Origin: Phaeodactylum tricornutum CCAP 1055/1 | Lineage: Eukaryota > Bacillariophyta > Bacillariophyceae > Surirellales > Neidiaceae | NCBI RefSeq assembly: GCF_000150955.2 | Contig: NC_011680.1 | Location: forward strand, 599,926 to 663,925 | Direction: 5' to 3' | DNA length: 64,000 bases | Shown here: positions 29 through 48,100 of the stretch, in pieces | How the letters are laid out: each line of letters starts with the position of its first letter | How positions within the stretch are numbered: position 1 is the stretch's first letter | Position numbers and translations under genes: made by a program | Notes under the pieces: generated by a model | Seen by the model: only the letters and a program-made list of their open reading frames with translations | Databases searched by the model: none | What the model was told of the DNA's origin: nothing

Positions 29-3000
29 TTACGCTTTCTTGGGCTTCATGATGACGAACGCAAGTACTCCCACTAAAGTTAGGGCAATACCAGCACCCGC
101 CATCACTTTTGAATTAGGCCCACTGGACTTGGGCTCGATTGAGACCGCATTCAATTTAGCGACTTTTTGGTTAGCTTTGCGAGCAAAGGACCACGATTCC
201 GTGACATCGTGATCAGTCGTTATTACGACCGTGTCCCCTTCGTCGTCGACATACTGGATCTGCAAACGGCTTCGGGGAATATCGACCTTCTCCGCAACCG
301 CCTCTAGAAGCTCCGTGACCAAAGTTTCGCATCGAATGCGATGGGTCCTTCCGTTTGGTTCGGTGACTTTAAAAACACCGACAACCGCGGCAAGACTTCC
401 TTCGTCGGGACTAAGCAGCTTGGACACGCCCCTTTCGTCACCGATTGTACTCCCATTGAAGGAAGCGTGGTCATCAGGCTCTTCGAATTCCAAAGTCGCC
501 GGAATATTTCCAGGAAGCTTTGTTACGTAAGGGGTCTCTGGTGGAGCTTTAATATGAGATGGTGATCCAAGTCTTCGACCTGATACGCGTGATTTTGAGA
601 GAGAATGCACGTCAGAGATATCGTCCAATTCCATTACATTGCTAAAGATGGACTTCCAGCCTTCAGCTCCACCACAACCATGTATGACGTCCATTACATC
701 AACCAGACCAACGACCCGACCATCGCTCTCACAAACCGGAAGAGTCAAAAACTTATTGTCGTGCATCGATTGTAAGGCCTCCAAGACAGTCATATCCGGC
801 GACACAAACTCCGGACTGGGAGTCATCACCTGTGACACCGGAGTCACGTCGAGATCTAGCTCCTTAGCCACGGCTCGCGACATCATATCCTTGAAAGTAA
901 ACACACCCACAAGTTCGCCGTCGTCGACTACCAGAGCCGCTTTGCGACTATCTGCCATCCGTAGACCGCAGTTACGAATGCTCGTAGATGGATCAACAAG
1001 TGTCCCTGGCTTTCCTGCCAAGAGACTACGAAGCGTCGGCATCTGCTTCCCTCCGAACGCCTGCGACATGAGATTGCCGAGGAGTGCCTTCAGTGCAGCA
1101 GCTTGGGCTCCACCGGCTCCTTGCTGCGCCACCATCTGCTTCACCGCGTCCTCCGCAGCACTATTCGTCTTTTCACTGGTGCGCTCCAACTTGCTGATTG
1201 CATCGTTTAAGCATTTCGCTATATCCAACAGGCCAACCACTGACCCTTGATCGTCTACAACAGGGAGATGCCTGAAATGATTCTCGACCATCGTAGTCAA
1301 TGCGTCCATTGCCGAATCGCTCATGGCAACACACGTTGGATTTGGAGTCATAACTTCGCTCACAGAGGTTGCTGACGTATCAATATGCTTTGCAACCACT
1401 CTGCGTGTGATGTCGGTATCAGTCATAATACCGGCCAGGCTTCCGTCCGTAGACACTACGAGCGACGCGGCCCCCCTCTTGCTCGACAACGTTTGACTTA
1501 CCCGTAATATGGTATCATCAATTCGAGAAGTGATTGGCTTGGACGGTCTGAGTTTTGAGACAGGACGCTCATTGGTAGACTCCTCCAATGCCTGCAAAGT
1601 AGACCGATCTTGCCGTCCTGCAATCAGAGTACTTTTTCCTGCACTGTTGATAGAAGTCACATCAGAAAAATCATCGTCCACATCCATTGCGCTGTCAAAC
1701 ATAGATCGCCATCCTTCTGGCCCACCGCATCCATAAATAACATCGAGAACTTCAACTAGCCCGACGATTGTCCCGTCGCTTTCACACACGGGCAGCGTCA
1801 GAAACCTGTTATCGTGCATTGTTTGGAGAGCCTCGAGGGCATTCATATCTGGAGAAACAGATTCCGGCTCTGGTGTCATGACATCAGCAACGGAGGTAGC
1901 ATCGAGATCAAGACCTTTCGCGACTGCACGCGACAGCATATCTTTAAACGTAAAGACACCAACAAGTACATCATTGTCGACAACCAACGCTGCTTTCCGT
2001 GTTTCAGCCATTAAGATTCCTGCTTCACGAATGCTAGCAGACGGATGAACGATGGTACCGGGCTTTCCTCCTAACAAAGCTCGTAAGGTCGGAACGGTCT
2101 TATCACCAAAAGCCTTGGCCATCAGATTTCCAAGTAGCGCCTGCAGAGCCACCGCTTGAGAATCAATAGACCCAGATTTATTCACCAAGATATTTTTTAC
2201 TGCATCTTCCCCGGCTCGACTGGATTGCTTGTTAGTCTTCTCCAGCTTGCCGATAGCATCGTCCAGGCACTTAGCAATATCAAGCAGACCCACTACGATA
2301 CCACGGTCGTCAACAACCGGAAGATGTCTGAAGTGATTTTCCAGCATGATGGTTAGGGCGTCCATTGCTGAATCCTCCATGGCTACGCAAGTGGGGAATG
2401 GAGTCATTACTTCGTCTACCGTAGAAAGTGCGGTGTCGACGAATTTGGCAACTACACGACGAGTAATATCCGTATCGGTGAGAATGCCCGACAGACTTCC
2501 GTCAGAAGAAACCACAACAGTTGCATTCGCACGCTTCATTGCCAGAAGCTGAGCAACAGAATCGATACTCGACGAGGGTTCCACAGTTACAGGCTTGGCA
2601 GGACGAAGTTTCGACACAGGCTTCGAAACCGTTTTGGCAACGACCGCAGCTGGCTTGCTCGGTGTTTTCCAAACCGGAGCTGTTGCGTTGGACCTGACGC
2701 TCTTGTTAGTAGGAACATTTGCAACGGCTGGGGCTGTTTTGACCGAGGCGTCACCTTTATCCTTCGCTTTCACGGATAAGTGTGGTCCGCCTGGCTTTAA
2801 GGGAGCCAGGCTTTTTTCCTTCTTGAGAGTGGTCTCAATCTCATCGATAGCTACGTTGATTTCGTCCGCGTCGGCAAACCTCTTCTCGGAGATAGCGGCT
2901 TCCATTTCTTCCTTCTTCGCAAGAAGCTGCATTTGTAGTTCCGCAACAGAGGGGAGGAGATCTCGAAGCTTAGCAAGGGCATCTGCGTCTGCCTGTATCA

Positions 3001-6000
3001 TGTTAGCCTTTTTAAAGTCTTTGGCCTTCACTGCCTTTGAAACCAAATCTGACAATTTCGTGATTTCACTTTCTAGATCCATTCGAGATTGGAAGACTCT
3101 CACCTGACCGTCGTGTAGTGTAGTTGCGGCTTTCGAAGTTTCTTCAGGAATTTGCAATTCGGCCATTTTTTCCTTTTCTTTCTCGAGCTGTTTTTCCAGC
3201 TCAGAAATCTTATTTGTGATCTTTTCGGCCCGCGCAAACGCCTTTTTAGAAACCGCTTCATCAAGATCAGCTTTTCCAGCTTTCAATGCGGCTTGTAAAT
3301 CCCGAACAGACGGGAAGAATTGTCGAAGACTCTCTCTCTCGTCCATCGCTACTTGTAATAAGGAGGCTTTTTTAAAATCCTTGCTGTCAATAGCCACTTT
3401 CACTTGAACTGATATTTCAGTAATGTCAAACTCTAACTGTGCTCGTGACTCAAATCCAAGAGCCTTGTTTTCCTTCCCTTCACCATCTTCGCTATCCTCA
3501 TCTTCATTCTGAGCAGCGAGGACATCCGCGAGTCGACCTCTAGCTTCATCAATGTGTGCTTGACCAGCAGCAGCTCCTGCAAAGTCACGATTTTTCACAG
3601 CCAATGCCATTGCCGCTTCAGCGGATCGGACTTCTTCCCGTAATTCGTCGACAGTGGGGAGTTCAGCTCGCTTTGCCAAGAGCTCGTCGAGCCTATCTTG
3701 GAGTGGGCCACATTCAGCAAAGGCCTTCCTACTTAACGAGTCATCAAGTTCTTTCTGCACCTGTACAATCCGAGCCTCAACAATCTGTCTTGTCAGGGGT
3801 CGTTTTCGGTCCACAGCATCCTGGATTGCGGCACTGTTGAAAATGTGACAATGAGGAGACAAACAAAGCAGAGATGGGACGATCCATGAACCCGAGACAA
3901 ACTTACATCTTCTCTTCCAGCTTTGCTGCGGCACGAAAGTCCTTCAGTATGACAGCCTCATCTAATCGGACCTGTTCAGCACCGAGAAGCTTTTTGCACT
4001 CACGAAATTCCATGTCACAAAATGGGTCTCTGAACTTACGAACACGCTGCATGGCAAGTAGTCGGCGTTGTTGGGATTGGATAAGAACCACTCCTCGCTT
4101 TATCAAGCGAAATTGGTGTACTTGCCGGTATCGTCGGACTACGGCTGCTAGTTTGCTCGCTGCTCGGGTTTCACGGTATCTGGTCAACATAGTCAGGCGA
4201 AACCGTACCCATGCAACAAGGAATGCAGATAGACGACGATAAGTCACGCGGCGGCCAAATCGACCGAGAGTGCGAGCTGCGGCATGTACTCGCAGCTTCG
4301 CAAGACGTTCAAGTTTGTCTGAAAGCTCTCGGCGGAGGAAGATCTTGGAATGGCCGATTTGCCAGTCAGCTTCGGTGACGTTGAGTCTCTTCGACAAAAC
4401 CTTTACGAGCTGCTCGATACCAGTCTCATCGGTATCGACCTCGTCCTGGTTCAGTAGGACACTGAATCGACTGAAGAAACTTTCGTGCTCTTCGCGAAGT
4501 GCGTAGCCTTCCCGTCGAATGCGAATTGCCTCCATCATTCCAGAATAGCGTAACTGCTTTAGAACCTCTCCGGCAAGGAAACTTCCGGGCGCTTTGGAAA
4601 GATTCGGTTTGATGCAGCGAATATAGTGCGGTTGGGTGCGATCTAAATCAGTCACTAAGCTTTGAAGTGACGAGCGAAACTGAGATCCCACGCTAATTCC
4701 TCGAATTGAAGACCTGAGAGGGTCTTTCCCGCTTATGTCCGACTGTCCACACGAATAAACTTTCTGGGAAAGATCCAAAGAAGACTGCTCGCCGAGTTCG
4801 CGAATTTCGTTACTCATGGTTTCCATATTCTTTTCGACAAATCCTTCAGCAGTATAGCGAACCTAGCAACATACCGAGAAAAAAATGTCAGGCCGACACG
4901 CCACACCTGCGAACTACGAGAGCAGCAAGTGACGTACCTCTCCGGCATAGTGTAGAACAATGAATTGACGGTCATTGCCAAACTTTGGTGTAACAAAGTT
5001 TGGGTGACCACTTTCTGTATCGCCCTTTTTACTGTCACCGGAACCCGTCCCAAACAGTTTGTGTAGATGGGTCACGAATTTGCCGTCTTTTTCAGAAGCG
5101 GTTCCCATTCCCCCCCAGGCATCATCCAATGTGTTGAGAATACCAACAATACCGCTACCACCCTCAATCAATTCCAAGCAAGGACGATTGTCGTTGAAGG
5201 TAATGTACGACCAATCTACGCCCTCGTTGGCGTATAACTCTTGCTCCACTTCAAACAAGTGTCGGTTGAAGTGACGCTGAAGCTTTTCATTACAGTAATT
5301 GATCAACAACTGTTCAAGGCCGTTTTGTTCGAAGCATTCGAAGCCATAGATATCAAGGACACCAATAAATCCGAGCTTATCGGAATTAAATGCCTTACTG
5401 GTAGACTTCTGCTGGAGTGTTTCATTGATGCACTGAACGAGCCACAAGAACAAACAAGAGTAGGTCATTTTGGCAAGAGCATCGCGCTTGTCCTCGGCCA
5501 ACGCCACATTCTGAGGCTTCTTTATTGTCTTGCCGTTAACTACCAAAACTTTGGTCAATATCGCCTCCGACAATTTGGCTTCATCAAGGCCCAAAAGCTC
5601 GCAGGCTTTCCGCAGCGACGGCAATGTAGCCGCCGAAATGATGGCTTCACAGTTTTCTTCCTGGTCCGTCGCTTCGAACTGGATATTTCCCAAATGCAAA
5701 ACTGCCGCCGTCATTCCGAAAACTGCCCTTTGGTCTTCCGTGTCTAGGCCGATACGTTCCAAACATACAATTGTCTCTCGAAAAGCTTCCGCATCTGCTT
5801 CGGACTTTTCGGCGCTGCGATTTCCGAGGTACGCAAATCCTTGCACCCCCTCTTGGAGTCCTAGGTCCTCCATCAGGGTCGAGTCTACCCCGGACAATAG
5901 TTGGTAGAAAATGTGATAATTGCGCTCGCCGTCTACCTGCGTCGTGATGCGCGTCTTTTCCAACAAATAATTCGAAATGGATGCTCCGGTAATACCTCCC

Positions 6001-7270
6001 TTAATCGTATCAAAGTAAATGTGAATGAATTTACCGAAACGTGAAGAATTGTCGTTCCGTAGAGTTTGGGCGTTTCCGAACGTTTCGAGCAACGGATTTG
6101 AAGACAGAACTCTATCTTCTAGTGCGGCAATGCGTTTGCCGTTAGGACTGAGCAAAGCGGTTCCTTCCGTGGCCGAAGGCTTTTCCGATTTGCGTGTGAT
6201 CCGCGCCAAATACTTCATGATGATTTTGGTTGCTTCCGTTTTGCCGGCGCCGCTTTCTCCACTAATAATAATGGACTGATTACGAACCATTCCGGGAGGC
6301 TGGTGATGGTCCCGCAACATGACGGCGTCTTCGTCTTCGAGGTGATCTGCGGCCGCGCTGGGGTGCACCGAATCCATGAGGGCGGTATAGGCCCGATCGG
6401 CAATCTGGAACAAGTGCGGCGTCTTGTCATCCACTGCCAAGGTCGACGAGCGGTAAACGAGCATTTGCTCTTCGGAATAGATCGATTCGCCACCCGGTAG
6501 ACAGACACTCTGATAAGGATTAATCGAGATGAGAATTGGTCCGGCGAGCGTGTAAATATCGTCCCGTCGGTAGCGTAAACGCAGCGTGTGCAGTAAGCTG
6601 GCTTCGGTAATTTGTGGCAGATGCAAGACATCATCCATGCCGATGTAATCGTCCGGTGCCTGTAAGGAAGTCAAACACGAACTGTCCTTGATTTTATGCA
6701 AGGTACCGTCGGAGGTTTTCACCAGAGTCGGTCCAGCGAAAGGTTGCGTATTCAGTTTTCCCGCGTTTTGACTGTTTTCGTCGTTAAGTGGTTTGATGAT
6801 TGTGCAGGGCATAAAGAGATGCTTGGAGGTGAAAAAGAGCGGGTCCTGAGAATCTTTTGCCGTTTTAAAGGGCGTTTCGCTGCCGCTGGTACCGTTGATG
6901 AGCAAGGTTGGATCAAAAAAATATTCGACCGTCGTCTTCCCAGTGACCTACCGTGAAAGTATATCAGATTGAAAACGCAAGCGGTGAGATCAGCCGTACT
7001 GCAACACACACAAGGCTCAATGGTGGGTGACCGTTGGCGCGCAGTCGCCACCGCCACACGGTAATATCCAAAACCAGACTGTTATTGCCAACGACAGTTC
7101 CAGTTGTCCGTACTCCGAGGCAGACGTACCATATCGACCGCCTTGGACTTTGTGTTCTTTCCCGGTGATCCGCTCTTCTTCTTATTGGTGTGGCCTTTTT
7201 TCTTATTCTTTCGCGTCGTCGGCGAAAACTGATGACCCTGTGGATCGACCGTAGCGGGCGTGGTCGTCAT
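29..7270 (-). CDS. Unconventional myosin with UVR-like repeats, CBS pairs, PB1 and tail anchor (4 exons)
   Basis: Exons are 7270-7130, 6947-4938, 4862-3907 and 3833-29, giving about 2303 residues. Seen: the motor has the P-loop GESGAGKT (~277-284), switch I NDNSSRFGK, switch II DIYGFE and the actin-binding segment PHYIRCIKPN (~795). A basic IQ-type neck (~914-997) follows. The tail has seven UVR-like segments of the kDFkkA...iDel type, then eight CBS motifs from ~1448, made of a ~320-residue unit repeated twice. A PB1 domain and a hydrophobic C-terminus (~2280-2299) ending KPKKA complete it. The last two introns (75 and 73 bp) restore conserved myosin text (HYAGE|VRY; LEEK-I-AAIQ). The first (182 bp) is less certain but yields a lysine-rich, ATG-started leader. 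Known: P. tricornutum myosins with CBS pairs and a PB1 domain have been described, and plant CBSCBSPB proteins share the CBS-PB1-membrane order. Inferred: an actin motor whose tail senses adenylate ligands, multimerises through PB1 and is anchored in a membrane. Confidence 0.9.
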
Positions 7271-8035: not shown

Positions 8036-9084
8036 ATGGATTCGTGGGAACCCGAGACGAACGCGTACGTGAGCACCATGGTAGACGCAGCGGCCCGCAT
8101 ACACCAACCGCGGGGGTTCCCACTCGTCCCACGCGCTTTCCTCCTTTCACTGCTCGTGTGTTCAACGGCACGATTCCATCCACTGGTTTCAGGATTCGTG
8201 CCGTCCCATGCCACAACCCGGCGTACATTGCTCCCGTCCGCATCCAGACCCGTGGTGCAACTGCGAGAAAAACCACGAGACGTGGACAAGTGGGACCGCC
8301 AAATTGCGGAAAACAGTGCCCGTAAAGCCCAAGAAAGCCGAGGCAGCAACGTGGGGGGAACCGCGGCGGGTGCGATTCTGGGCGGACTCTTGCTCGGGCC
8401 CTTTGGTACGTACACACGTGGTCCAACACTAGTCGGACGTAGTGGAAGCGAGCTACGTCCGCTCGGGGACGCCGCGTGTTGGTAGAAACGAACGGAACGG
8501 ATGCCGACTCGTACCAAGCTCTCATCACACCACCCCGGTATGCATACACAGGTACCTTGTTTGGCGCTTCGGTCGGTTCCAGCTGGGGTGCCCGCCAGGC
8601 CCTGGACCGGGCGCGCCAAGAAGAAATGGAGCGACTGGGCGTCACTCCGGAAATGCTAGAGGCGGCCCGCGAAATCGGACTCACGTTGGAACAATCCATG
8701 GACGGATTGCGGGCGACACAGGAGAGTTTGGGTACTTTGCAGCGAATTGCTCGCCGACTGGATGCGGAAAACACGGAACTGTACGCCAAGGCGACACAAG
8801 CCGTCACGGACGGAGACGACACAATGGCACGCAAATATTTGTTGGAGCGTACGGCGATTGAGGAAAAATTGAAAAAGACGTTGACGGAATGTGCGGACGA
8901 AAAAAAGCGATTCTCACGAATGGAACGGAACGTGGAAGCACTCGAGGAGCGGGCACGAGAAATTGAGCGATTGCTTTCGAGATCGGTGGGGGCCAAGGCC
9001 ATGCAAAATTCGAGCGAACTCGGACTAGCTTTGTCCAGCGAAGACCCGCTCTTGAAAAAATTTCGGGATGCTGGCCTCGAGTGA
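8036..9084 (+). CDS. Plastid-type glycine-zipper/coiled-coil protein (2 exons)
   Basis: Exons 8036-8405 and 8552-9084 encode about 300 residues. The 146 bp intron (GTACGT...ACACAG) is phase 1 and joins the hydrophobic glycine-rich segment cleanly (GPF-G-TLFGASVG). Seen: an N-terminal hydrophobic stretch (AFLLSLLVCS) is followed by VSGFVPS and a basic Ser/Arg/Pro-rich stretch, which resembles a diatom bipartite plastid presequence (signal peptide, ASAF-like site, transit peptide). Then come a glycine-zipper-like hydrophobic region (~120-150) and a charged coiled coil to the end. A second in-frame ATG at 8078 in a good context could be the real start, placing the signal peptide nearer the N-terminus. 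No family is recognised. The protein may be membrane-associated in the plastid; that is inference. Confidence 0.8.
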
Positions 9085-9638
9085 GAACAGCAGCAAGTCA
9101 AATGCTCAACAGTCAGCTGACAGTTTCGGTTCGACTCGCCTCGCACACCGAACGAGCCGAAACAAGATAGATGAATCACATAGGAGCAGGCGCAACCGTA
9201 CCTTTTCGATCTCCCTCGAGCCTGCTTCGTATTTCCTCATATTAGACATTCGAGATAGATTCCGGAGTCGTAGCAATAGAAAAGGAATAGCGATGAACTG
9301 TTTGTATGGCATACCATCCCAATAAGCGTCGGCTATCTGTCCTTTGGTCGTAACAATAAATTGTAAGAATAATCATGGTACAGTTCGTGTTTTTTTGACT
9401 GTCTGTGAGGCACTCTAAATTGTCGAATTCTTGGAAAATTCTAGTTAATTACACATGCGGTTTTGTGACATGAACGGACGATTCGAATGTGTTTCATAGT
9501 CAATCAGGGCATAAGCTACCCGAACCTCCATGCTTTCCTTCATCCACCGGAGCACCCGACCTTGAAACTGCTGACGCAAGGAGATATCAATTCCATAATA
9601 CTGCCACTCTATCACTGTGGGGTAGAAAGTTTATCCTA
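9085..9638. other. Intergenic
   Basis: This is the 3' flank of the glycine-zipper gene and the presumed 5' region of the sulfotransferase-like gene. It is AT-richer than its neighbours. The frame of the downstream gene is open back to 9489 but has no ATG before 9639, so no extra exon is claimed. Confidence 0.5.
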
Positions 9639-11156
9639 ATGGTTCAACCATCCAACGCCACGGTCAGAAAGCTGCTGACGAAATCACAAACAACGCCACA
9701 ACGAAGACCACGCCAGTCGCCCTCTCCCATCTCAATTGTTATCAAAATTGTCACAGCGACTGTTATCATCCTTGCCATAGTGCACCCGATTTATCTCTAT
9801 CGCCACATATCCCAATCGAACGCAATCCCTGGGGACTGGTTCCAGAACAAATCAATGTCATCGCTGTCGGCGGAGTCAACCAACCGCAAGCCAAAGACGC
9901 CAACCGAAGGCCAAGCAACAGGGCTTACACGAGCGCAAGAAAATAACGCTCACCGACTACACCTTCGCACGACTCCTGGCGAACGACCGTATCTGCGACA
10001 AGACAGTCCGGGTTGTTTGACGGATGCTTGTGTACAGCAACTGGCGTCCACGATTGCTCGCGCCTTTCCGGACCGCGTTAACCAGAGTTGGTGTTTTCGG
10101 GAGGAACCTCCACTGGGTCATGAAGACAACGCCAACGCGCCCGCGTCAGTACACAGCAAAGACGGAAATGGGGTGTGGCGGGGCATAATCCTGGTCAAAG
10201 TTCCCAAAGGCGCGTCTTCCACCTCGGCCGGCGTTGCCATTCGCATCGGTCGCCGTGTCGGGTGTCAGGCAGTCCAGTGGAAACACCGCGTCGCTTCCAA
10301 GTACCAACGGCTCCACCATCCCGACACCTTTTTGTTTACGACCGTTCGGGACCCGGCAGCACGTGCGATCAGCACTATTTTCTTCCATACCATAAGTCGA
10401 AGCCCAAAAGCCAAACCGACGGACGATCTCATCAAAACTTATTTACAACAGAGCAAGGATATACACTTTGGATCCATTTCGGAGGGACAGGGAGGTTTTC
10501 AATTGCGTTACACATCCCTAGACGAGATTGCTAAGGGCTCGGCCTGGTCCGCGACCAACAGAACGCGCGTTTTGCATCCGGAGCAGGTCGTCGCCAACGT
10601 GCGGAGCGTAATTGACTCTTACGGATTCTTGCTTGTAACGGAGCGTATGGAGGAATCTCTCGTCGCCATGGCACTTGTCCTGGGCATTGACGTGGCTGAC
10701 GTTCTAGTCACGTCGTCCAAGGTCGCCGGTGGTAGTCGGTATCACTTTGCCCGTATGCCTAAACAAGAGTACAAATGCTTACCTACCGTCAAAAGCTTTG
10801 TTTCTCCCGGAGTCGCTCAATACATAGATTCGGACGAGTGGCGGGCAATTAACTATGGAGATTACTTGCTGCAAGCCACCGCCAACCAGAGTTTAGATTT
10901 GACCATTGCACGTTTGGGGAGAACGCGGTTTGAGGCGGCTCTGTCCGAATTCCGTACATTGCGCGCCAAGGAACAAGCTCTTTGCGCCCCTAATGTGTCA
11001 TTCCCGTGTTCGAACGAGGGCGTTCCACAACCACAGCTTGCCACAGAATCCTGTTACCTACCATTTTTTGATTTCGGCTGTGGACACAAATGCATTGATC
11101 AAATGATCAAAATTGATCGGGAAATGCGGGGAGTTAGTGGATGGCAGTACCAATAG
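9639..11156 (+). CDS. Type II membrane sulfotransferase-like protein
   Basis: Single exon of 505 residues from the first in-frame ATG. Seen: a short basic cytosolic N-terminus, one hydrophobic segment (~31-54, ISIVIKIV...IYLY) and a stem. A lumenal domain follows with KVPKGASSTS (~185-195), which fits the 5'-phosphosulfate-binding loop of PAPS-dependent sulfotransferases, and VRDPAARAIS (~238), which fits the 3'-phosphate-binding motif. The C-terminal part has several cysteines, as expected for a Golgi lumenal enzyme. Known: this architecture is typical of Golgi carbohydrate sulfotransferases (Sulfotransfer_2 / Gal3ST-like). Inferred: it sulfates a cell-surface or secreted polysaccharide or glycoprotein. 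The acceptor cannot be deduced. Confidence 0.75.
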   Translation: MVQPSNATVRKLLTKSQTTPQRRPRQSPSPISIVIKIVTATVIILAIVHPIYLYRHISQSNAIPGDWFQNKSMSSLSAESTNRKPKTPTEGQATGLTRAQENNAHRLHLRTTPGERPYLRQDSPGCLTDACVQQLASTIARAFPDRVNQSWCFREEPPLGHEDNANAPASVHSKDGNGVWRGIILVKVPKGASSTSAGVAIRIGRRVGCQAVQWKHRVASKYQRLHHPDTFLFTTVRDPAARAISTIFFHTISRSPKAKPTDDLIKTYLQQSKDIHFGSISEGQGGFQLRYTSLDEIAKGSAWSATNRTRVLHPEQVVANVRSVIDSYGFLLVTERMEESLVAMALVLGIDVADVLVTSSKVAGGSRYHFARMPKQEYKCLPTVKSFVSPGVAQYIDSDEWRAINYGDYLLQATANQSLDLTIARLGRTRFEAALSEFRTLRAKEQALCAPNVSFPCSNEGVPQPQLATESCYLPFFDFGCGHKCIDQMIKIDREMRGVSGWQYQ

Positions 11157-22216: not shown

Positions 22217-25200
22217 CTACCGGTGACCTCTGGATCCTTTCAAATTCCTGGGCGGACGATAGCTGTCTCCGGGAACGTCGCTGTGAAATAATCGCGCCAC
22301 AATTGTGTTGTAGGCTATTTCATCGCGTTGTCCCGCTTGTCGTACCCGAGCGGACGTTCGCGATCGGTGCCGCAAAGAGTGCGCCAGCATTACCTGTTCG
22401 CCGACCTCGTTCACGTCATGGACCCAGCCCGGAACATCCTTCAGTCGCAGCCAGACAGTCTCATCACCGGCGGGCGACACGCGTTCCGTCACGACCACAC
22501 TCTCACCACCGAGCAGTACAGTACGGGTCGTCTCGGCCGCAAATGACGGTCCCTTGCGAACCGCCACTCCCGCGTCGGGCACAACATTGTACCGCCACCC
22601 CTGCGCATGTCGCTCGATCCGAGGTTCGGCCGCACACTCGTCAAGAAACAGATCTTCCGGACCAAAGACCTGTACCCATTCTGCTTGCGTCGTCAGACTT
22701 GGAAGTTGCCGGAAACTATCATGACCCGTATGCCACCGGACGTGGCGATTGCGGTACAATTTGGCGAAGCACTCAATTGGATCGCCAGCCTGCGAAAATA
22801 CGGTTAATATTTCGGAGGCCCTCAGAAATTCACCGCATTCGAAACGAAAGTACTCGCTGCCGTCGCCGGATTTGATGGGTGGAGCCCGCTGACACGGACC
22901 CCAGCGAACCTTGACACCGCGGGCGGTTTGTACGCGGAACCAGAACGATCCCCACCGAACGTCGGGTTTGCACACTACCTCGTAGGTGGCCTTGCCTGCA
23001 ATGGAGAGCGGCAACCAACCCTGGCCGCCGCGCAGGCGGGCATACTCGACTCCGGTACGATCCGGGGACCGATCCGTCCACTTTTCAACTTCCAAACAAA
23101 CACCGCATGCAATTGTTGTTGATAATTGCATCTTGTCGAAATTACTGGATTTGGCGGCCAGCTCCACTGGTATTTCCGGGGCGGACTTTTTGGGGGTACG
23201 AAACACAGCGTCCAGAAAGGCGCTGCCAACGGACGACGCCACGTCGGAATCCAGATTGCTCAGTGGTCCATAGTTTGAGCCGTGGTTAGATCCGGTAATG
23301 GCAGAAGACTCGCGCGATGAAGTGGGGGATGTATTGTCATCATCCAAGGGGAGCACTGGGGGTGGACATGTGACTGCAAGTCCGGCCCGGGTCCGGACGC
23401 GAATCCACACGGTTGACGACAATCGCTCGGCAACGGACGCTTCCACAGCATGCGATTCCAAGACAGCGTTGCCCACTTCTTGGTAGGCACGGGATGCTTC
23501 GCCTTGCTTAATCGTTGCCACACCTCCAGAATAGTGACGGTACTGGTGATCAAGTTCGTCCTGACGAGGAACAATAGCCCATCCGCTGTTATCCGACAAT
23601 TTAATCAACCCGGCGCCTTGACTAAAGGCTCCGGTATTTTCCATTCGCTTAGATGCCTCGAAAAAGGCTCCCCGAGGTAGTACGCGAGTTTTCGAGCTTG
23701 AGTCAAAGACAGCAGGATTGCCGGATTTGCTCGTGGCAGTGGTCGCCGAGCGTCCTGCCATGGTATGAAAAATGGACTGGTGGGTCGTGGACCCGTGCGG
23801 TTCCGGTGGAGGCATCTTTTGCGGGGAGGCGACGCTGTGCGACGCGGATTTTCTATGAATGAGGGTATTGACTTGGAATTGCGGGGCGTCGAGAATTTTA
23901 AGACCCCGTGGAGCGGTGACCCGCAGGAGATAAAATTTCTGTGTCACCGGAGACACGGAAACGATACTCTTGGACGTAGCGTGCGATACGTCCGTCGAGG
24001 ATGGCATTCCGTGTCGGAGCGCGGTGGTTGGTAGTTGATCGAAGGACGACTCGTCGGACAAGATGGAGACATTTGAAGAAAGGCCATCGTTGTGTTTGGA
24101 CGCTTTGGCCATTAAATTGGTCGCGTGTAGGGATCGACTCCCACCAATGTGTCGGGGCAAGGACTTGTCCATCAACGCTTCGTTCGCGTCGGCATCTTTG
24201 CGGCGACGGGGTGGCCGATGCCTACGTCGAGCGGCATTTGAGGGAGCGGCAATCGAAAAAGTAGAAAGAACGGACAAGGCCGATACACTGATGCTGCCAT
24301 CGTCCGAAACGTCCGTCATGACCGGTGATATCAATTCCTGGACAACAGGGATTGATTGCGGTTGACCGTCGCGAGTAGTAACAATTTTCCGATCGGCCAT
24401 CCACCCCCGACGGTGACTGAGTTTGAGAAAAATTACGCCGTCATTATCAACAGTGATGCGCAGGGATACTTCGTGAACCGTTCCGGGTAGCATCACGGCT
24501 TTGGTCTTGGGCGCATTCCGGGATGGACCCGTCAATACAGGTAGTGGCGTAGTCGACACAATCTTGTAACGAAAGAGTCCTTCCTCGGCGTGCGGTACGG
24601 TATGGAGAGGTTCGACAATCGTCTCACCATTGGTGTGCGCCAATAGATATCCGATAGGTGCGTTGGTACGATGCCCATCCTGCCGTGTCGGATGGGACAG
24701 CGACGGCGCTGAATAGGGAATGGCGGCGCCTCCCGTGTTGGAATGTTTGGGAGTGTCGTCCGCCAGCGTCTGGGGTGCGGCGTCGACAGCGTAGCCTCCT
24801 GTCAAGAGAGAATCAACACGAATGGCCGAATTCGCCCTGGTGGTATCGTCATCAATCGGGACGGTGGACCTTGAGGCGAAAATTTCTCCGTATCCCACGT
24901 ATTGCGTACTCTTGGGTGCGGAAAGGACCGGTTCGGAGAGCAGCGCGACGACCCCACGGTAGACGACTCTGTAATAGTGTAGATTGCTGTCGGCTGCGGA
25001 AGGCAGCAAATGTTGCGGCACGGAAGGAATTTCCGGTGCTAGTCGTCGACGTTCTCCACCTCCAATAGTCGTCAAGTTGTCGATCGAACGTCGTACCCGT
25101 CCACGTTCGGGGCGATCGAATAAAAGTGCGGCTGGTCGTCGCCGCAGCTCCAATGCTTCGCTCGGTGCCCATGACTGTCGTGGAGTCCCAACGGCGGGTG

Positions 25201-25333
25201 GTCCCCAGCGACGCCGACGCTCCGCTACCGTTCCGCCATCACCGAAGGGTGGCTCGACGAGGGCTCCACGGAACGAGGACGATGCATCGTCGGACGCGTA
25301 TAGCGGGTCCGGAGGAGGCGGAGGAGAGTCCAT
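22217..25333 (-). CDS. Large SH3-like (SH3b) repeat protein of unknown function
   Basis: Single exon of 1038 residues from an ATG. Seen: a proline/arginine-rich N-terminus, then at least five diverged modules of ~70-90 residues separated by low-complexity Ser/Thr/Arg linkers. Each module looks like a bacterial-type SH3 unit: an opening strand (FRYKIV, YLLRVTA, RVRTRAGL, FRVQTARGVKV, WRYNVVPDAGVAV), a mid segment of variable length, then G-x-x-x-L or W-x-x-x and a closing G-W. Examples are RRGWMAD, NSGWAIV, GQGWLPL and VPGWVHD. The last module (RKGPSFAAETTRTVLLGGE) fits the SH3b pattern best. No catalytic domain, signal peptide or membrane segment is visible. A scaffold or binding role is inferred from the repeats only. 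Confidence 0.75.
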   Translation of the reverse strand: MDSPPPPPDPLYASDDASSSFRGALVEPPFGDGGTVAERRRRWGPPAVGTPRQSWAPSEALELRRRPAALLFDRPERGRVRRSIDNLTTIGGGERRRLAPEIPSVPQHLLPSAADSNLHYYRVVYRGVVALLSEPVLSAPKSTQYVGYGEIFASRSTVPIDDDTTRANSAIRVDSLLTGGYAVDAAPQTLADDTPKHSNTGGAAIPYSAPSLSHPTRQDGHRTNAPIGYLLAHTNGETIVEPLHTVPHAEEGLFRYKIVSTTPLPVLTGPSRNAPKTKAVMLPGTVHEVSLRITVDNDGVIFLKLSHRRGWMADRKIVTTRDGQPQSIPVVQELISPVMTDVSDDGSISVSALSVLSTFSIAAPSNAARRRHRPPRRRKDADANEALMDKSLPRHIGGSRSLHATNLMAKASKHNDGLSSNVSILSDESSFDQLPTTALRHGMPSSTDVSHATSKSIVSVSPVTQKFYLLRVTAPRGLKILDAPQFQVNTLIHRKSASHSVASPQKMPPPEPHGSTTHQSIFHTMAGRSATTATSKSGNPAVFDSSSKTRVLPRGAFFEASKRMENTGAFSQGAGLIKLSDNSGWAIVPRQDELDHQYRHYSGGVATIKQGEASRAYQEVGNAVLESHAVEASVAERLSSTVWIRVRTRAGLAVTCPPPVLPLDDDNTSPTSSRESSAITGSNHGSNYGPLSNLDSDVASSVGSAFLDAVFRTPKKSAPEIPVELAAKSSNFDKMQLSTTIACGVCLEVEKWTDRSPDRTGVEYARLRGGQGWLPLSIAGKATYEVVCKPDVRWGSFWFRVQTARGVKVRWGPCQRAPPIKSGDGSEYFRFECGEFLRASEILTVFSQAGDPIECFAKLYRNRHVRWHTGHDSFRQLPSLTTQAEWVQVFGPEDLFLDECAAEPRIERHAQGWRYNVVPDAGVAVRKGPSFAAETTRTVLLGGESVVVTERVSPAGDETVWLRLKDVPGWVHDVNEVGEQVMLAHSLRHRSRTSARVRQAGQRDEIAYNTIVARLFHSDVPGDSYRPPRNLKGSRGHR

Positions 25334-26203
25334 GCCTCGCTTGTCCTGACGGTGGAACCCTTTTTCTCACGGACCCCCGGAAGCGGAATGAAACCGGAAT
25401 CAGTGGGGCTGTTTCTCCCAGTCTCACGATTATTGGGTCCACCGTGTCCCCACCCGTTCCTTGCCTGGGGTGGCAGGATGCGGACGCGACTACTTTTGCA
25501 ATCCAACGGTGCGACACCAGTTCAATGTTGGCAGGTCGTTGGGACAAACGAGGCAAGTACTCATCAAACGAACAAACAAATTAAAACACAATCACGCTGC
25601 CGTGGGAAAAGGAGTTGGTCGGACTTCCCACACACCATCCATAGTTATACGACACAGCACCGCACCATGCACGCGACGTCCTCGAGCCGGAAAAAAGAAC
25701 CCACACTGTTCGAACAGGTACTGTTCCAGAGCCGTGAATGGGAGAGATGCGCCAGCCCTCCTGCGTCGCCCGTTATGATTGGTCCGATAGGAACGAACGG
25801 AATGTAAGCATTGGAATAGACATTATATAGTTTGTCGCCGGACGACCGTGGCGACAATTCGGAACGAAGCGACCCTACCGACTGTGGCAGAAACAAGCCT
25901 CGTTCCCAAGACTCACACACTCTCTGAACATTCCTCAACCTATTCATGTAATTGCTGTTGGGTAGGTAGGTATCCAACGTAACTGCAAACTACCTACTAT
26001 GCGTGGTCTACTCGATAGAGCTAGGTATTTACGGCAAGTGAAAAACGAAAACTAAGATATCCGACACTCAAAGAAATCGAGGACCCATCCCCGACCAGAT
26101 CCTACTGGGACCATCCACGTCGAACGACACATCGCGTCCCTCTAAAGTGACTGATCGCACGAATACAAAGGAACAACGACAACATCAAAAATCATCAGAC
26201 CTT
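25334..26203. other. Intergenic
   Basis: This is the promoter side of the SH3-like repeat gene and the 3' side of MRE11, both on the minus strand. Open frames are short and shared between strands. I see no repeats, RNA genes or conserved motifs. Confidence 0.5.
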
Positions 26204-40736: not shown

Positions 40737-42182
40737 TTAGAACCATCCCTGGAAGGAAGAGTCTTGACCCCGCTTATACCATTTGAACGCGTTGAGCATG
40801 CTGGGAATGAGAATGACAGCGAATCCAAGGTATGCATTGGCCTGGAATGGAAAGTCAAGGAAGGGTTCTCCGTATTTGATAACATACGACACCGCTGCAC
40901 ATCCAGCAAAGAGCTTGACGAGAAAGCTATAGTCGTTGTCGCGGGCCAAGGCGTCTCCGAGATCTTCAAAGCCCATCAGAGACTTCTTTTGGCGAGATAC
41001 AATAGCTTGTGTACCGTTCACTTTCTCTTGCGGCAACGCGCGTAGAAATGTAGACACAATGGGACTGTCTGGTATCTGGTAACCGTTCGAACGAGCGATT
41101 CGATAGGCTGCATACGCCGCTGTCGTGTTGCCGACACACGTCAACAGCGCTTGGAACGGTACCAGAATGGAGATTTGATTGTAAAATAAGTGGTAGGTAC
41201 AAGCTGTAATACCCGAGGAATGCAGAGGCAGTAAACCCCAAGTCAGTCCTTTCCAGCGAGGATTGCACATTGCATCACTCCATCGCCAACAAAATCCCAT
41301 GGCTACCAAGAATTCCACCAAAGAGGATATGTGGATAATCCATGTGGCGATGGTCAAGGCGTTTTCGGGTTCCGGGTGAGAGGCCCCCCATTCTTCTATG
41401 GACACGGGGAGGTCCATAACTCCCCCGAGGTATGGTGTATGTACGGACGGATCCGCCATTGCTGGAATGGCGACCGAGACGGTGGCCAAGGCTGTCAATC
41501 CAACGACCAACCACGTCATTGGTAAGTAGCTGGTAGCGCTGATGGGCATCGTATCAAGCTGCTGCTCTTTCGCATTGAGAGCTTGACGAAATGCTACCAC
41601 CGTTATAAGATTTGTAACTGTCAGAAGCGATTCCGCACCTCCATGCAACCAATCACTGTCCGCCAAAGAAACTCCATATAGTAGCTTCGCAGCAATGGCG
41701 GCCGGAATTGTCAGAAAGACAAACAACAGGCATGTGGCGAAACCAACCGTCACACCTTTTGGTGTCTCGTTTTCTGGTCGATTCAAAAAATATAAGAACG
41801 CGAGGTATGGGAAAAGGGAAGCTCCAAAGAAGGGTCCGGCGAGAGCTTCGGCCGTATCCTGATCCATGTTGAGTATGTCATTAATACTATTACCAAGAAA
41901 AGAAAAGCTAAAATCGGAAAATATTGTCGATGGCGACGAAATGATTGTGGCAATGGACGCGGCCGATCCGGCGACTGCTTCCGGATTCATTGACATGACA
42001 CCTCGAAATCTCAGCTTGTGAGGTGTTTGAACACGAGTTTTATGGCACCCATCATTGATGCTGGGAAGGAGATTGCGAACTGCCTTCCTTTGCGGCAGCA
42101 ACTCCGTGAACGCCATTGCTACTGGATGTGCCGCAACGGCCAATCCCAATACAGAGGTCTTTAACCACCGTACCACGATCAT
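40737..42182 (-). CDS. Ycf49-like plastid membrane protein (DUF3593 + DUF2499)
   Basis: Single exon of 481 residues from the ATG at 42182. Seen: an N-terminal signal-like stretch (VLGLAVAAHPVAMAFTELLP) whose MA-FTE site resembles the diatom ASAF plastid cleavage motif, followed by a basic transit-like region. The mature part has several hydrophobic helices. GPFFGASLFPYLAFLYFLNRP fits DUF3593. ALTIATWIIHISSLVEFLVAM with a later PLHSSGITACTYHLFYN fits Ycf49/DUF2499. Known: Ycf49-like proteins are conserved in cyanobacteria and plastids but have no proven function. Here both domains sit in one chain, apparently in a plastid membrane. The two-domain fusion also occurs in other algae and plants as far as I recall. 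Confidence 0.82.
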   Translation of the reverse strand: MIVVRWLKTSVLGLAVAAHPVAMAFTELLPQRKAVRNLLPSINDGCHKTRVQTPHKLRFRGVMSMNPEAVAGSAASIATIISSPSTIFSDFSFSFLGNSINDILNMDQDTAEALAGPFFGASLFPYLAFLYFLNRPENETPKGVTVGFATCLLFVFLTIPAAIAAKLLYGVSLADSDWLHGGAESLLTVTNLITVVAFRQALNAKEQQLDTMPISATSYLPMTWLVVGLTALATVSVAIPAMADPSVHTPYLGGVMDLPVSIEEWGASHPEPENALTIATWIIHISSLVEFLVAMGFCWRWSDAMCNPRWKGLTWGLLPLHSSGITACTYHLFYNQISILVPFQALLTCVGNTTAAYAAYRIARSNGYQIPDSPIVSTFLRALPQEKVNGTQAIVSRQKKSLMGFEDLGDALARDNDYSFLVKLFAGCAAVSYVIKYGEPFLDFPFQANAYLGFAVILIPSMLNAFKWYKRGQDSSFQGWF

Positions 42183-42610
42183 GGTGGTTGTCTTGTGCAC
42201 CGGATAACAAGGAAAATCAACAATCTCATGCAAAAGCCCAAGCACAAGGACGCGCTTGGATACGAATCCAATGACTGCCTAATATATAAATCTTCAATCA
42301 GGAATGCATCAGAAAATGACTGAGAATTGACTTGCAACACAAACGAAAAGATATGGGGTATGGTCACTGACATTGACAGTGATTTGACTGGAAACCTGAC
42401 CCTTGCTACAGGAAATCTATGAACCTACCCTAATTAGTAGGAGCGCTATGAAAACATCACCTCATGAACAGACGTGATGAATCATCCAACATACACCGAC
42501 TCACAGTCAAAAGCTTCAGATTCACCTTGTCAGAATCCGACGTCCATCATGTCTCGTCATCACATCTCGGTCATCTCATCGGTATCATAGCCTTCTGCTA
42601 CGAAACTTCC
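42183..42610. other. Intergenic, divergent promoter region
   Basis: Short shared region between two diverging plastid-targeted genes (Ycf49-like and lumenal DUF1499). The + strand frame is open from an ATG at 42464, but the signal peptide is terminal only when the ATG at 42611 is used. No other feature is seen. Confidence 0.5.
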
Positions 42611-43573: not shown

Positions 43574-43886
43574 ACGATTTACCGTACAGTAATCATAGTT
43601 GGGTCACAACTTTGGGTATCAAATGGTACTTGTAGCATGTGGCTCTCAAAATTCAGAGATAAATATTTGTCGTAGTGAACGTCTGAACGTTAATCGTTAC
43701 TATATATTTTCATGAATAAGTAGAACATTATGCCACTTTCGGGTCTCTTGTGTTTCAAATTCGAAGCACTTCCAAAGTCTTCCTGGTCGTTCCCTGCGAT
43801 GTTACCGACAACAGAAATGGAACCAACTCGTCGTGCTTCCTCGTTCATTTCAATTTTCTCATCGTCGTCAACGGATCGAAGTGACT
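43574..43886. other. Intergenic
   Basis: Short region between the DUF1499 and Josephin genes, AT-rich at 43600-43720. No feature recognised. Confidence 0.5.
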
Positions 43887-45014
43887 ATGACAACGACAAA
43901 GCTCGATCCCGAAAACGTGTGGATCTACCACGAGCGTCAGGAAGCTTCGTTATGCGGGCAGCACGCGTTGAACAACCTTGCCCAGAAACCCGTGTTTACT
44001 GCTTATCAGCTGGCACAAATTGCCCATCAACTCGACGAGCTGGAACTCTCGTACATGGCGCAAAACGACGAGGGCGGGACCCGCTCCACCGATTACCAAC
44101 GCCGTTTGGCTGAAGGCAGCGGAAATGTGGACGCGCAAGGGAATTTTAGCATTCAGGTTTTGAAAGCAGCACTGCAGCAAGAGTACAATCTGCCGTTACC
44201 GCACTTATCGCAGGATGTGTTACAGCAACAAAAGTTAACGGCGCGTTCGGATATCACAGATTTTCAAGGATTTCTCTGCCACAAGTCGGATCACTGGTTT
44301 GCGATTCGGAAAGTTGGCGGTCGCTTTTGGAATCTCAATTCGACGTTAAAAGTTCCCGTCGTGGTTAGTCACTTCCAGCTCGCGACCGAAATGGAAACAT
44401 GGCGGGGACAGGGCTACACCATATTTTGCGTGCCCTCCGGCTTGCCCACGGAAGGACAGAAGCAAAAAATTGCAGGAGGGTTAAAGGCCGAGGTTCATCG
44501 CATGTCGGACCTCGTACGAGGAAAGCCAACGGAAAAGAATCCCTGGGATAGCTTGTCTGGACGCGGAATGCGCTTGGATGGTGGTGGCACCGGCAATGCT
44601 TTAAGTCGCAAGAACGAAGGAGGAAACCCGATCAGCAATGGAATGGTAGTGGACGAATTGACCGAAGAGGAGCAGCTGCAAATGGCCTTGCAAGCCAGCT
44701 TGGAACCTATTAGTGATGCGAATGTCCCTAACGCCGTGGCATCGGCAACACTACCCGTCCCGTCCGAGCCAGATACTTCGGCCGTCGGTGCCGTACGGAT
44801 TCAATTTCGCTTGCCGGACGGTTCGCGGCGTGTCCGAAGATTTCTGGATACAGATCCAATGGGAGTTGTTTTTTCTTACGTCAGGGAACAGTCAGATGGA
44901 CGTGCCATCGATCTTCGTTACGGTTTTCCTCCCAGAGATTTGGTCCTGGTACATGATCAAACAATTGCCGAAGCGAATCTTGCCAACGAAAGCATTCAAG
45001 GTCGATTTGTGTAG
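43887..45014 (+). CDS. Josephin-domain deubiquitinase with UIM and UBX (ataxin-3-like)
   Basis: Single exon of 375 residues from the ATG at 43887; the frame is open upstream but without ATG. Seen: the Josephin domain starts IYHERQEASLCGQHALNNL with the catalytic Cys (~23). DITDFQGFLCHKSDHWFAIRKV follows with the catalytic His (~131), then RFWNLNS with the third residue Asn. A ubiquitin-interacting motif, LTEEEQLQMALQASL, lies at ~256-270. The C-terminus (~300-372) is a UBX fold (VRIQFRLPDGSRRVRRFLDTD). Known: ataxin-3 trims ubiquitin chains and works with p97/CDC48; UBX domains bind p97 directly. Inferred: a p97-tethered deubiquitinase in protein quality control. Animal ataxin-3 lacks the UBX part and has a polyglutamine tail instead. 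Confidence 0.92.
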   Translation: MTTTKLDPENVWIYHERQEASLCGQHALNNLAQKPVFTAYQLAQIAHQLDELELSYMAQNDEGGTRSTDYQRRLAEGSGNVDAQGNFSIQVLKAALQQEYNLPLPHLSQDVLQQQKLTARSDITDFQGFLCHKSDHWFAIRKVGGRFWNLNSTLKVPVVVSHFQLATEMETWRGQGYTIFCVPSGLPTEGQKQKIAGGLKAEVHRMSDLVRGKPTEKNPWDSLSGRGMRLDGGGTGNALSRKNEGGNPISNGMVVDELTEEEQLQMALQASLEPISDANVPNAVASATLPVPSEPDTSAVGAVRIQFRLPDGSRRVRRFLDTDPMGVVFSYVREQSDGRAIDLRYGFPPRDLVLVHDQTIAEANLANESIQGRFV

Positions 45015-45112: not shown

Positions 45113-48100
45113 CTAATCAAACGAAATAGACTCTTCCACCGAAGCGGCATCGAATTCGTCACGCGAAAGCAATCGAGCTGTCGCATTCTTGCGAAAATTG
45201 GTAAAATCAAAGCCGCCCTTCCTGTCTGTAGAAGCACCTGCTGGATTGCTCTCTTTGTTACCAAAGCGAGCAAACGGATTACGTTTTATCAACGGAACAC
45301 TAGCCTTGCTGCTCGAGTCGTCGGTGGCTGTGGTATTGGCGGTCTTTGTTCCAGAGGCACCTGTCGTTTCAGCCGTGTTGTCAGATGTACTAGGCGCGTG
45401 ACCCATTCCTACGCCGGCGAATGGATTTTTGAAAGCGGACGTCGTTTGCTCGGCTGCCTCAAAAGCTCCGTTATCGATGGGAGCCGGAGCCTCGGGTGCA
45501 GGTGCTGAATCGTCCGGCGATCTAGTCCAATCCAAGGCTCTACCTACGCCTTTAAATGGGTTCTTAAAGGCCAGTTTCTTTTCATCCGCGATTGACTGTG
45601 AATCCGCTGGTTGCAACTCATTCGTGGCTTCGTTCGCATTTTCGGCTACTTGCTTGCTTTTGAAAAATTGCAGCCCTACGTTCTTCCGACCTTCTCGAGA
45701 GTCCCGTTCGTTGGCGAGTTTTTCGAATTGCTGGGCCCGACGCGTCATGGACACCAGTGACTTTTCCAGCAAGTTTTGCATTTTCCGTTGTGCCTTTTCG
45801 GCTGCTGAAGCATTGTGGAGCGTCTCCATTTGACCAAACAATGACATTTCCGAATTGTAGTCCACGAGAACCGCAGCAGCTTTCAGGTGACACGACGGAC
45901 CTTCGCGAACGAGCCACGAGTGCGCTGCGGCGAATCCTCCGTCCAAAACGGAAACAAAGGGAAAGCCCTTCTTGACAAAGAATAGAGCGCAAATGTCGGT
46001 ACGCGACTCGTCTTGCTGCATCAGCTCCTCGAGTTTGGGAGATAGCTTTTGTCCGTACAGTTTGGGTATGGCCGAAAAGCCTTCTCCCATAATGACAATG
46101 TGTACCGCGCCACGTAGCGATTCGAACGTTTCTTCGTTCAGTTGAATTCGTTCCGGATCTAGCATTGCTTCGGGGCTGAGACTCACAGCGGTCGGAAACC
46201 GGCCTTGCTCTAAAGCAGCTTCTTCGGCGCGACTGTCTACAAGATAAAACTTCAAATGCTTGCGACCTTCCGTTCGATTGCGGCGGAGTTCTCCGCGGTG
46301 AACTGCGGCTTCTTTACTCCAACAGAGATCGGATAAGACTTCGTCAGCCGTCACCAACACCGAAACTTTGTCGGCATGGCGACCGGCGGCGACTCCCGAA
46401 ACATCTTCCAAAGCAACTTGTGGCCGTCGGCCGAGTCCTTGGTTCATGGTTTGCATGAGAAGGTTGGCAGCAATCTTGTTCACCGGTTTGGGTTGTTTCG
46501 GTTTCAAGGCAGGGTTGAACGATTCACCGTACTTTTTCAATAACTTCCCGTCCAAAACATCCAGTCGACCCGCGTAAACTTTTAGAATCTGATCAATGTT
46601 GTCTTCCTTGTCCGGAGCGTGTTTGCGGTAGTAAGCCACCAAGCGGGCCCGTGTCAAGCGTGCCCGGGCTTCCTCCGCCTTGCGTTCCTGCGTTTCCAGA
46701 TGCGCGATTGCTTCCGCTTCCATCCGCGCCTTGATCGCGGCCTCGGCGCGTTCTTGTCGTCGACGAATTGACGCTTGGACGGTCTCGTCTTCGGCTCGAC
46801 GTAACGTTTGCAGGACAGATTCTGGCGTCGAGCGCTGCAAGCTGTGAACTCGCATGCGCCACTCATCCATCCAATCGTCCGTACTGCGCTTGTCTTCCAA
46901 CTGAAAGATTTTGTCCAAGGCGGCCAACAGCTCCTCGCCCGTCAGGAGCAAGAGTTGATCGGCCGCTTGTTCAAAGACGGCCACCGTCCAGAAAAAAGGA
47001 GTTGCCTGATGTTGCTGTGAAGCGTCCATCAAGATTCCGTCCCACAATTGCAAGATCCATCCCGTCGGCAAGATTGAAGCCACGTGTTCGCATTCTCCCG
47101 CCGCCAAACTGAGTGTCCAGGAAGGCGGAATCCGTCCGTGCCGGGTCAAATTTCGAGCCAGATGGGTGCTGGTCTCCCCGGCGTCCTGTTTTTGGCGAAC
47201 CGAGGCCGGGAGCTTGGGCCAGTGCCATCCGGGTGCGTACTGATCCAAATGATAGACCAGCAGTGGCAGGTGGTAACAGACCAGTAGGTAAAGTTCGGAG
47301 TGTAGAGAAAGCGCAGCCTCCCACCGCTCCGGCGGTTCCAGGGCGAGTACGGGTGTAAAGGCTGGCAGGAGCTGGGCCAGAACAACACTCGCGGCGGCCA
47401 CGGGCATGTTGGTGGATAGGATTACCGCCGCCACGGCGGGCACGAGTAAATCGGCTTCCGACGGCGCGGCGGTGCTGTTTTGTTGCCAATGATAGGCCAG
47501 GAGTTTGGTCAAATCGTCTTGACAGTCCAACACCTCGCGGTGCGTTTCGGTGGCGACGCGCAATGCCAAAGTGGGCAGTTCCGGCAAGGCTTGGAGCATC
47601 GTGTCGGGTGCGTTGGACGCGCCCGGTTCCGGCAATGGCCAGTGTTGGAAGGAATCGGCCAAACTGCTGGACTGTGTCTCGGCGAGCGATTTGCCACAGA
47701 CCATACGACAGTACAAGTCGGCGCGCAGATCGGCGTCGACGACCGGATGGGCAGTGGCGTACAAGTGACGTAATTGCCCAACGGTTGCTTGGGGACTTTC
47801 CAGGGCTTCCCGAAGCGTCGCAAAGACCGGTGGCAAGGCGACGACCGTTGGTTCCGCGGTCTTCACCGGAGTGACGGTCAAGGATGATTCGTTGGACGGG
47901 GTTTTAGACAACGAAGCGTCGATCGACGTCGGTGTTTCGGTCGTGGGGAGACCCGCCAGGATACTCGCGGCTGTGGGATCGCTTCCGCTGGCACTACTGG
48001 TGTTTTGGTTAATATTGAGTGTGTTGTTGTCATCGTCGGGGACCGCATTGACGTCGTCTTCGTCGAGCCAGTCGAGAATATTTTGGGTTTCCACGTCGTG

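Follow-up and report, generated by a model that had tools for sequence, protein, structure and literature searches.

A probable class-XXIX-type myosin gene of Phaeodactylum tricornutum with a doubled CBS block and a family of UVR-like repeats in its tail

Introduction

Class-XXIX myosins of stramenopiles combine a motor, an IQ neck, helical segments, up to 18 CBS domains, a PB1 domain and a C-terminal transmembrane segment (PMC2375034, 2007). Class 29 is one of five diatom classes in the accessible part of a 2024 paper (PMC11420354), which states that to date no diatom myosin has been functionally characterised and cites a 2010 survey of the myosins of P. tricornutum. Proteins containing both CBS and PB1 domains are also described in the available portions of PMC2694836 and PMC7051960, as plant CBSCBSPB, fungal Mug70 and a Chromista family. 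The former gives CBSCBSPB as two CBS domains plus PB1, and its available text does not contain the word "transmembrane". Here, we describe a gene in a 64,000-nucleotide stretch of P. tricornutum CCAP 1055/1 (contig NC_011680.1, positions 599,926 to 663,925, forward strand; hereafter the window), which encodes a myosin with a long tail of CBS and PB1 domains. Its domain content probably makes it a class-XXIX-type (stramenopile) myosin. The analysis follows up an earlier note that had proposed such a protein from the letters of the window.

The main text of PMC5583752 and PMC3942036 contains neither "CBS" nor "PB1", and that of papers on viral and single-helix myosins neither "CBS" nor "XXIX". 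Our literature search, as far as the indexed texts extend, returned no ligand or cargo for the class-XXIX tail among the matches listed; a search for tail-anchored CBS-PB1 proteins returned nothing relevant among its listed matches.

Results

One predicted spliced gene encodes the motor and the tail

The gene occupies the minus strand from 7270 to 29 and consists of four exons (7270-7130, 6947-4938, 4862-3907 and 3833-29) that join in frame. The introns are 182, 75 and 73 nucleotides long, and all three have GT...AG borders. The spliced product has 2303 residues, its sole stop codon being the terminal one at 29-31. From its N-terminus, it consists of a myosin motor and a degenerate IQ-like neck, followed by seven repeats of 30 residues, two units of about 338 residues that together hold eight CBS motifs, a PB1 domain and a C-terminal hydrophobic segment (Table 1). 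The earlier note had given the span as 29-4862, which covers exons 3 and 4 only; the parts it named are all present, and its three splice joins into one chain agree with the four-exon model.

The join between exons 3 and 4 falls at residues 1035/1036, inside the first repeat (residues 1013-1042). Retention of intron 3 would stop the frame immediately (ATG TAA where exon 3 ends), and the first methionine of exon 4 is located within repeat 3. The single chain is well supported by these three features, and we consider the evidence for one gene with one spliced product to be good. Exon 1 is the least certain part of the gene. It encodes 47 residues, with 11 K/R against 2 D/E. A small plus-strand frame (8443-9084), which faces the myosin gene in head-to-head orientation, has a weak match to a spectrin-like repeat (24.0 bits, cut-off 24.4).

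The full myosin head of the earlier claim is borne out by Pfam Myosin_head (E 1.5e-197, two stretches). Residues 48-997 align with solved myosins; 151 distinct sequences pass E 0.001 in the PDB search, and among the best 60 of these 151, which were listed, myosin-X (5i0i) is the closest (E 5.7e-130). The motifs of the P-loop (GESGAGKT), switch I and switch II (DIYGFE) are all intact. No relatives came from scans of viral contigs, whether the query was the motor portion encoded by exon 2, the repeat alignment, the CBS unit or a two-row CBS alignment.

The CBS block is an old duplication

Pfam CBS matches eight stretches of the tail (E 4.5e-70), the number of motifs that had been read from the sequence. 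Unit A starts at residue 1440 and unit B at 1792; of 338 positions, 222 (66%) are identical between them. The proposed duplication of the block is thus real, with a unit nearer 338 residues than the approximately 320 suggested at first. The aligned part comprises 332 codons, in which the two copies agree at 67% of their residues and 63% of their bases. Only 30 of the 123 comparable fourfold sites agree, which is the chance level (dN 0.26; dS not computable). Because the fourfold sites are at chance while 67% of the residues are kept, the duplication is old and both copies have been constrained; a recent or artefactual duplication is rejected on the same grounds. The T-x-x-D motif, the ribose signature of adenylate-binding CBS, is present in four motifs, one per Bateman module and at the same places in both units.

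A search of genome contigs yielded 55 loci with prokaryotic CBS proteins at 23-39% identity. We modelled residues 1792-2303 using two rows from the window and segments of seven of these 55 loci. The block means of the predicted local distance difference test (pLDDT) are 84-96 in the two CBS modules and 49-77 in the helical linker that connects these, with an overall mean of 67.8. Foldseek returned 397 matches at E<=0.001, the best 50 of which were listed. A ribosome-bound archaeal CBS protein ranks first, followed by MJ1225 at ranks 2-3 (TM-score 0.71 and 0.73 by target length) and SSO3205 with AMP at rank 4. Many of the remaining listed matches are AMPK chains, probably gamma, and identity over the whole unit is 12-18% among the matches listed. 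In both the model and the Foldseek alignments, the two Bateman modules are predicted to form one unit. The prediction supports an adenylate-sensor-like fold for the CBS unit.

The PB1 domain and the C-terminal segment

The predicted PB1 domain was confirmed by Pfam at residues 2191-2262 (E 3.2e-9; 37.1 bits, cut-off 23.6). By sequence, its solved relatives are limited to three weak NBR1 matches (best E 0.79). K2191 is part of the predicted strand 2188-2193, and DDEGD lies within 2230-2236, where model confidence is 52-64. In the available part of PMC7051960, PB1 domains of type 1/2 are recognised by a lysine in strand 1 together with a D-x-D/E-x-D/E OPCA core. Since both are found here, the domain would be of type 1/2 and able to chain head to tail.

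The hydropathy maximum of the protein is at residues 2279-2297 (19-residue mean 2.48; best elsewhere 1.27). The terminal membrane segment of the earlier note therefore holds by hydropathy, and it is a probable tail anchor. With a single anchor at the C-terminus, the rest of the protein would be located in the cytosol.

Seven repeats form a family with profile-level likeness to UVR

The seven segments that had been called UVR-like form a supported family. In a leave-one-out test, each repeat was scored with a matrix built from the other six, and in 7 of 7 cases no position outside the family scored as high; because the segments had first been picked by eye, the test is biased in their favour. 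We also shuffled the repeat region 300 times and counted the shuffles that reached the observed score of each repeat (Table 1). Repeats 2 and 3 are weak alone, as 27 and 30 shuffles, respectively, reach their scores.

The relation of this family to UVR is visible at the level of profiles. Pfam UVR (PF02151) is not listed for the whole protein and gave no listed match up to E 10 when the repeat region was searched alone, a search in which the HMMER filters drop most matches above approximately 0.1, and full membership of the family is rejected. For comparison, we used 11 bacterial UVR sequences located by PF02151 in four of five genomes. Alignment of the repeats to their profile with hhalign gave a probability of 94%, with the phenylalanines in register. 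The score of 29.2 was reached by none of 200 column shuffles (best 15.8), and reversed repeats scored 10.9. Circular rotation of the repeats scored 28.6 at best; this control is uninformative, because a shift of a few columns simply realigned. Single repeats score at chance level against a model built from the 11 bacterial sequences (best 10.7 bits, reached in 1 of 30 shuffled regions). An RD pair occurs in 10 of the 11 bacterial sequences, whereas none of the seven repeats has it at the same position. A profile of the 30-residue repeat found no UVR protein among its ten PDB matches at E up to 10, and its two weak matches in five prokaryotic genomes both lie away from the PF02151 UVR places.

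UVR is a part of the ClpC middle domain and folds as a helix hairpin. Two of the PF02151 matches lie in frames of 831 and 827 residues, in agreement with the place of UVR in ClpC. We predicted the structure of repeats 4-5 with AlphaFold2 and supplied repeats 6-7 and 2-3 as further rows of the alignment; repeat 1, which spans the exon join, was excluded for that reason. The model contains four helices arranged in two hairpins, each turning just before the conserved phenylalanine (mean pLDDT 89.6). Foldseek returned 199 matches to it, none at E<=0.001, and the best 50 of the 199 were listed. Designed proteins and bacterioferritins occupy the top ranks, ahead of ClpC, and nine of these 50 are ClpC or ClpL entries. 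The geometrically closest ClpC/ClpL match among those listed is a 53-residue chain of 9goq (MecA with ClpC; 0.9 Å, 26% identity, E 4.0), which is probably the ClpC middle domain. A ClpC chain was also the only match of one sequence search with the repeats (E 5.3). In another, ClpC accounts for 7 of 13 matches (best E 0.084); six carry the name, and the seventh, 6emw_C, is called a class III stress-response ATPase. The ClpC matches are individually non-significant, but together they point to a UVR/ClpC-type hairpin. The name UVR-like thus stands for a seven-member family with profile-level likeness and weaker support from the fold, and fails as an assignment to the Pfam family.

The main text of PMC2375034 does not contain "UVR", and in our literature search, from which subscription papers are mostly absent, "myosin" and "UVR domain" never occurred together. 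Since the two were not found together, the naming of the hairpins may be new.

Table 1. Features of the myosin gene and its product (window positions; the strand is that of the gene)
Feature	Residues	Window position	Strand	Remarks
Whole gene		29..7270	-	In-frame join, GT..AG introns, single terminal stop
Myosin motor region	~118-894	4332..6737	-	Interrupted by intron 4937-4863; Pfam Myosin_head
P-loop GESGAGKT	277-284	6237..6260	-	Sequence motif
Switch II DIYGFE	579-584	5337..5354	-	Sequence motif
Neck with degenerate IQ-like segments	~905-1000	4014..4301	-	Strongly basic
UVR-like repeat 1	1013-1042	3815..3977	-	Spans intron 3906-3834; 3/300 shuffles reach score
UVR-like repeat 2	1061-1090	3671..3760	-	27/300 shuffles; weak alone
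UVR-like repeat 3	1107-1136	3533..3622	-	30/300 shuffles; weak alone
UVR-like repeat 4	1176-1205	3326..3415	-	0/300 shuffles; predicted helix hairpin
UVR-like repeat 5	1222-1251	3188..3277	-	0/300 shuffles; predicted helix hairpin
UVR-like repeat 6	1296-1325	2966..3055	-	0/300 shuffles
UVR-like repeat 7	1342-1371	2828..2917	-	0/300 shuffles
CBS unit A	1440-1755	1676..2623	-	Four CBS motifs; GILTDTD (1485) and GVFTFKD (1661) carry T-x-x-D
CBS unit B	1792-2107	620..1567	-	Four CBS motifs; GIMTDTD (1837) and GVFTFKD (2012) carry T-x-x-D
PB1 domain	2185-2262	155..388	-	K2191 in predicted strand 1; acidic core YVDDEGD (2230-2236)
C-terminal hydrophobic segment	2279-2298	47..106	-	Probable tail anchor by hydropathy; followed by basic end KPKKA

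Surroundings of the gene

We searched 19 of the window's 21 other long frames, and also 8443-9084, against Pfam. Apart from a split transposase, the matches are to a mixture of families of enzymes, transporters and regulators, and nothing was seen in them that bears on the myosin. At 56454-58772 (minus strand), two adjacent frames match different parts of the DDE_Tnp_1_7 profile, a piggyBac-type family, and the transposase looks broken because each frame covers another part. Single open frames combine Josephin and UBX domains (43716-45011, plus strand) and DUF3593 and DUF2499 (40740-42278, minus strand). Two long minus-strand frames, 22220-25366 and 45116-48442, encode 1049 and 1109 residues without a Pfam match at E<=0.001. 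A polysaccharide pyruvyl transferase match is present at 61183-62400 (minus strand), and a galactose-3-O-sulfotransferase match below the cut-off at 9474-11153 (plus strand).

Discussion

The best overall explanation of the gene, and one that we consider probable, is a class-XXIX-type motor with a ligand-responsive CBS tail, PB1-based clustering and a membrane anchor. With its motor motifs intact, the head would walk on actin. The chain of helical hairpins that follows the neck may extend the arm and make protein contacts. The two units, each composed of two CBS-pair (Bateman) modules, would bind small ligands, most likely adenine nucleotides, and binding would change the state of the tail. 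The basic and acidic faces of PB1 could allow neighbouring molecules to chain head to tail. The single hydrophobic segment at the C-terminus is predicted to hold the tail in a membrane, with the motor and the sensors in the cytosol. The most likely role would be the transport of membranes or organelles by motor clusters, in which clustering or autoinhibition is set by ligand binding to the CBS units.

Several features weigh against this explanation. Lysine 520 is located 16 residues before DALAK (window 5529-5531, minus strand, as derived from the exon coordinates), where myosin-X has a glutamate. By the TEDS rule, an acidic or phosphorylatable residue is expected at this site. The IQ neck is degenerate. 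Residues 869-1010 contain 37 K/R against 10 D/E, and IQ-like segments, picked by eye, start at 915, 931, 954 and 977. Pfam IQ is absent from the whole protein and from the neck region searched alone at E up to 10, again with the HMMER filters dropping most matches above approximately 0.1. The IQ neck of the earlier note is therefore retained as degenerate segments in a basic region, without the Pfam match. In the CBS block, T-x-x-D is missing from four of the eight motifs. Block means of pLDDT are 52-64 in most of PB1, 32-36 over its last approximately 20 residues and about 30 in the anchor. Exon 1 and the splice joins are drawn from the sequence alone.

Three other explanations were weighed. 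Two genes might have been wrongly joined, with exons 1-3 encoding a short-tailed myosin and exon 4 a CBS-PB1-anchor protein of its own, and a transcript keeping intron 3 would indeed give a tail-less myosin. However, repeat 1 is built over the exon 3/4 join, on which ground two separate genes are rejected; the first methionine of exon 4 sits in repeat 3; the intron 3906-3834 has GT..AG borders and a length of 73 nucleotides, similar to the 75-nucleotide intron within the motor; and the published class XXIX carries the motor together with CBS, PB1 and transmembrane parts in one chain. We regard two genes as very improbable. It is also possible that the repeats are an ordinary coiled coil, unrelated to UVR or ClpC hairpins. 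This would fit the lack of a listed Pfam UVR match, the chance-level scores of single repeats, the RD pair that is common in bacterial UVR and missing here, the repeat-profile searches of PDB and genomes that led to no UVR protein or place, and the Foldseek list, with nothing at E<=0.001 and designed proteins and bacterioferritins above ClpC. The in-register profile alignment that no column shuffle matched, the predicted turn just before the conserved phenylalanine and the recurrence of ClpC in both sequence searches, none of it significant, argue for a hairpin of the UVR/ClpC type, and a plain coiled coil seems rather unlikely to us.

The third alternative concerns the CBS ligand. In other proteins, CBS modules sense small molecules, and they bind ligands besides adenylates too. 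The units could accommodate NAD(H), S-adenosylmethionine or a non-adenylate compound, or no ligand at all, and serve mainly as an assembly scaffold, so that the motor would not be energy-gated. The four motifs lacking T-x-x-D are compatible with this. Close solved matches of single modules are the bacterial CBS pairs 4fry (1.6 Å, 29% identity) and 2rc3 (1.5 Å, 31%), and the NCBIfam matches are many different CBS families, all below the cut-off (best 25 of 28). On the other side, the best whole-unit matches listed include MJ1225, SSO3205 with AMP and many AMPK chains, and one canonical site per module has been kept in both copies despite randomised fourfold sites. Another ligand or none is possible to our mind, short of probable. 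Adenylate binding with a regulatory effect can be put forward tentatively: the predicted fold match to MJ1225 and AMPK and the T-x-x-D motifs in half of the block make the energy-state gating raised by the earlier note plausible.

In its furthest form, the class-XXIX-type explanation describes a membrane-anchored myosin that polymerises through PB1, is switched by adenylates via two AMPK-gamma-like CBS units and uses the ClpC/UVR-type hairpins as a docking or dimerising arm. We think this full combination unlikely. If true, an actin motor would sense the energy state of the cell directly, through its own tail. The anatomy of the protein allows a direct test of motor regulation by nucleotide binding in the tail, and the UVR/ClpC-type hairpin provides a named repeat to seek in other class-XXIX tails.

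The gene itself is no surprise, because its architecture has been published. The CBS and PB1 domains of such myosins were rightly said to be described already (PMC2375034), and the duplicated block and the anchor, put forward as deserving attention, are likewise known from class XXIX; the UVR-like repeats are the less familiar detail. What is new is the family of hairpins, the old age of the CBS duplication, the regular presence of one canonical site in each Bateman module and a PB1 with both interaction faces.

As in class XXIX, one chain holds a motor, helical segments, a large number of CBS domains, PB1 and a C-terminal segment, the last being recognised here by hydropathy only; degenerate IQ-like segments stand in the place of the IQ neck. 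The CBS motifs number eight rather than up to 18, and the helical part, given as short coiled-coil regions in the class, resolves into seven UVR-like segments for which AlphaFold2 predicts helical hairpins. With UVR and the ClpC middle domain, the repeats share the predicted hairpin with its turn before the conserved phenylalanine and the profile-level likeness, but they occur in seven copies, escape Pfam UVR and lack RD. The CBS units resemble AMPK gamma and MJ1225 in having two Bateman modules per unit and in their predicted fold; they differ in their low identity, in standing in tandem and in a ligand-binding role that is only predicted. Plant CBSCBSPB, Mug70 and the Chromista family have CBS and PB1 together, C-terminally in the last, and the accessible parts of their descriptions mention no motor, whereas the present protein has a doubled CBS block attached to a myosin. 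The plant order invoked by the earlier note, compared by description, agrees in joining CBS to a single PB1, and its membrane part finds no support in the available text of PMC2694836. That paper may count CBS pairs differently, and by the count used here, the diatom protein has eight CBS motifs and is fused to a motor.

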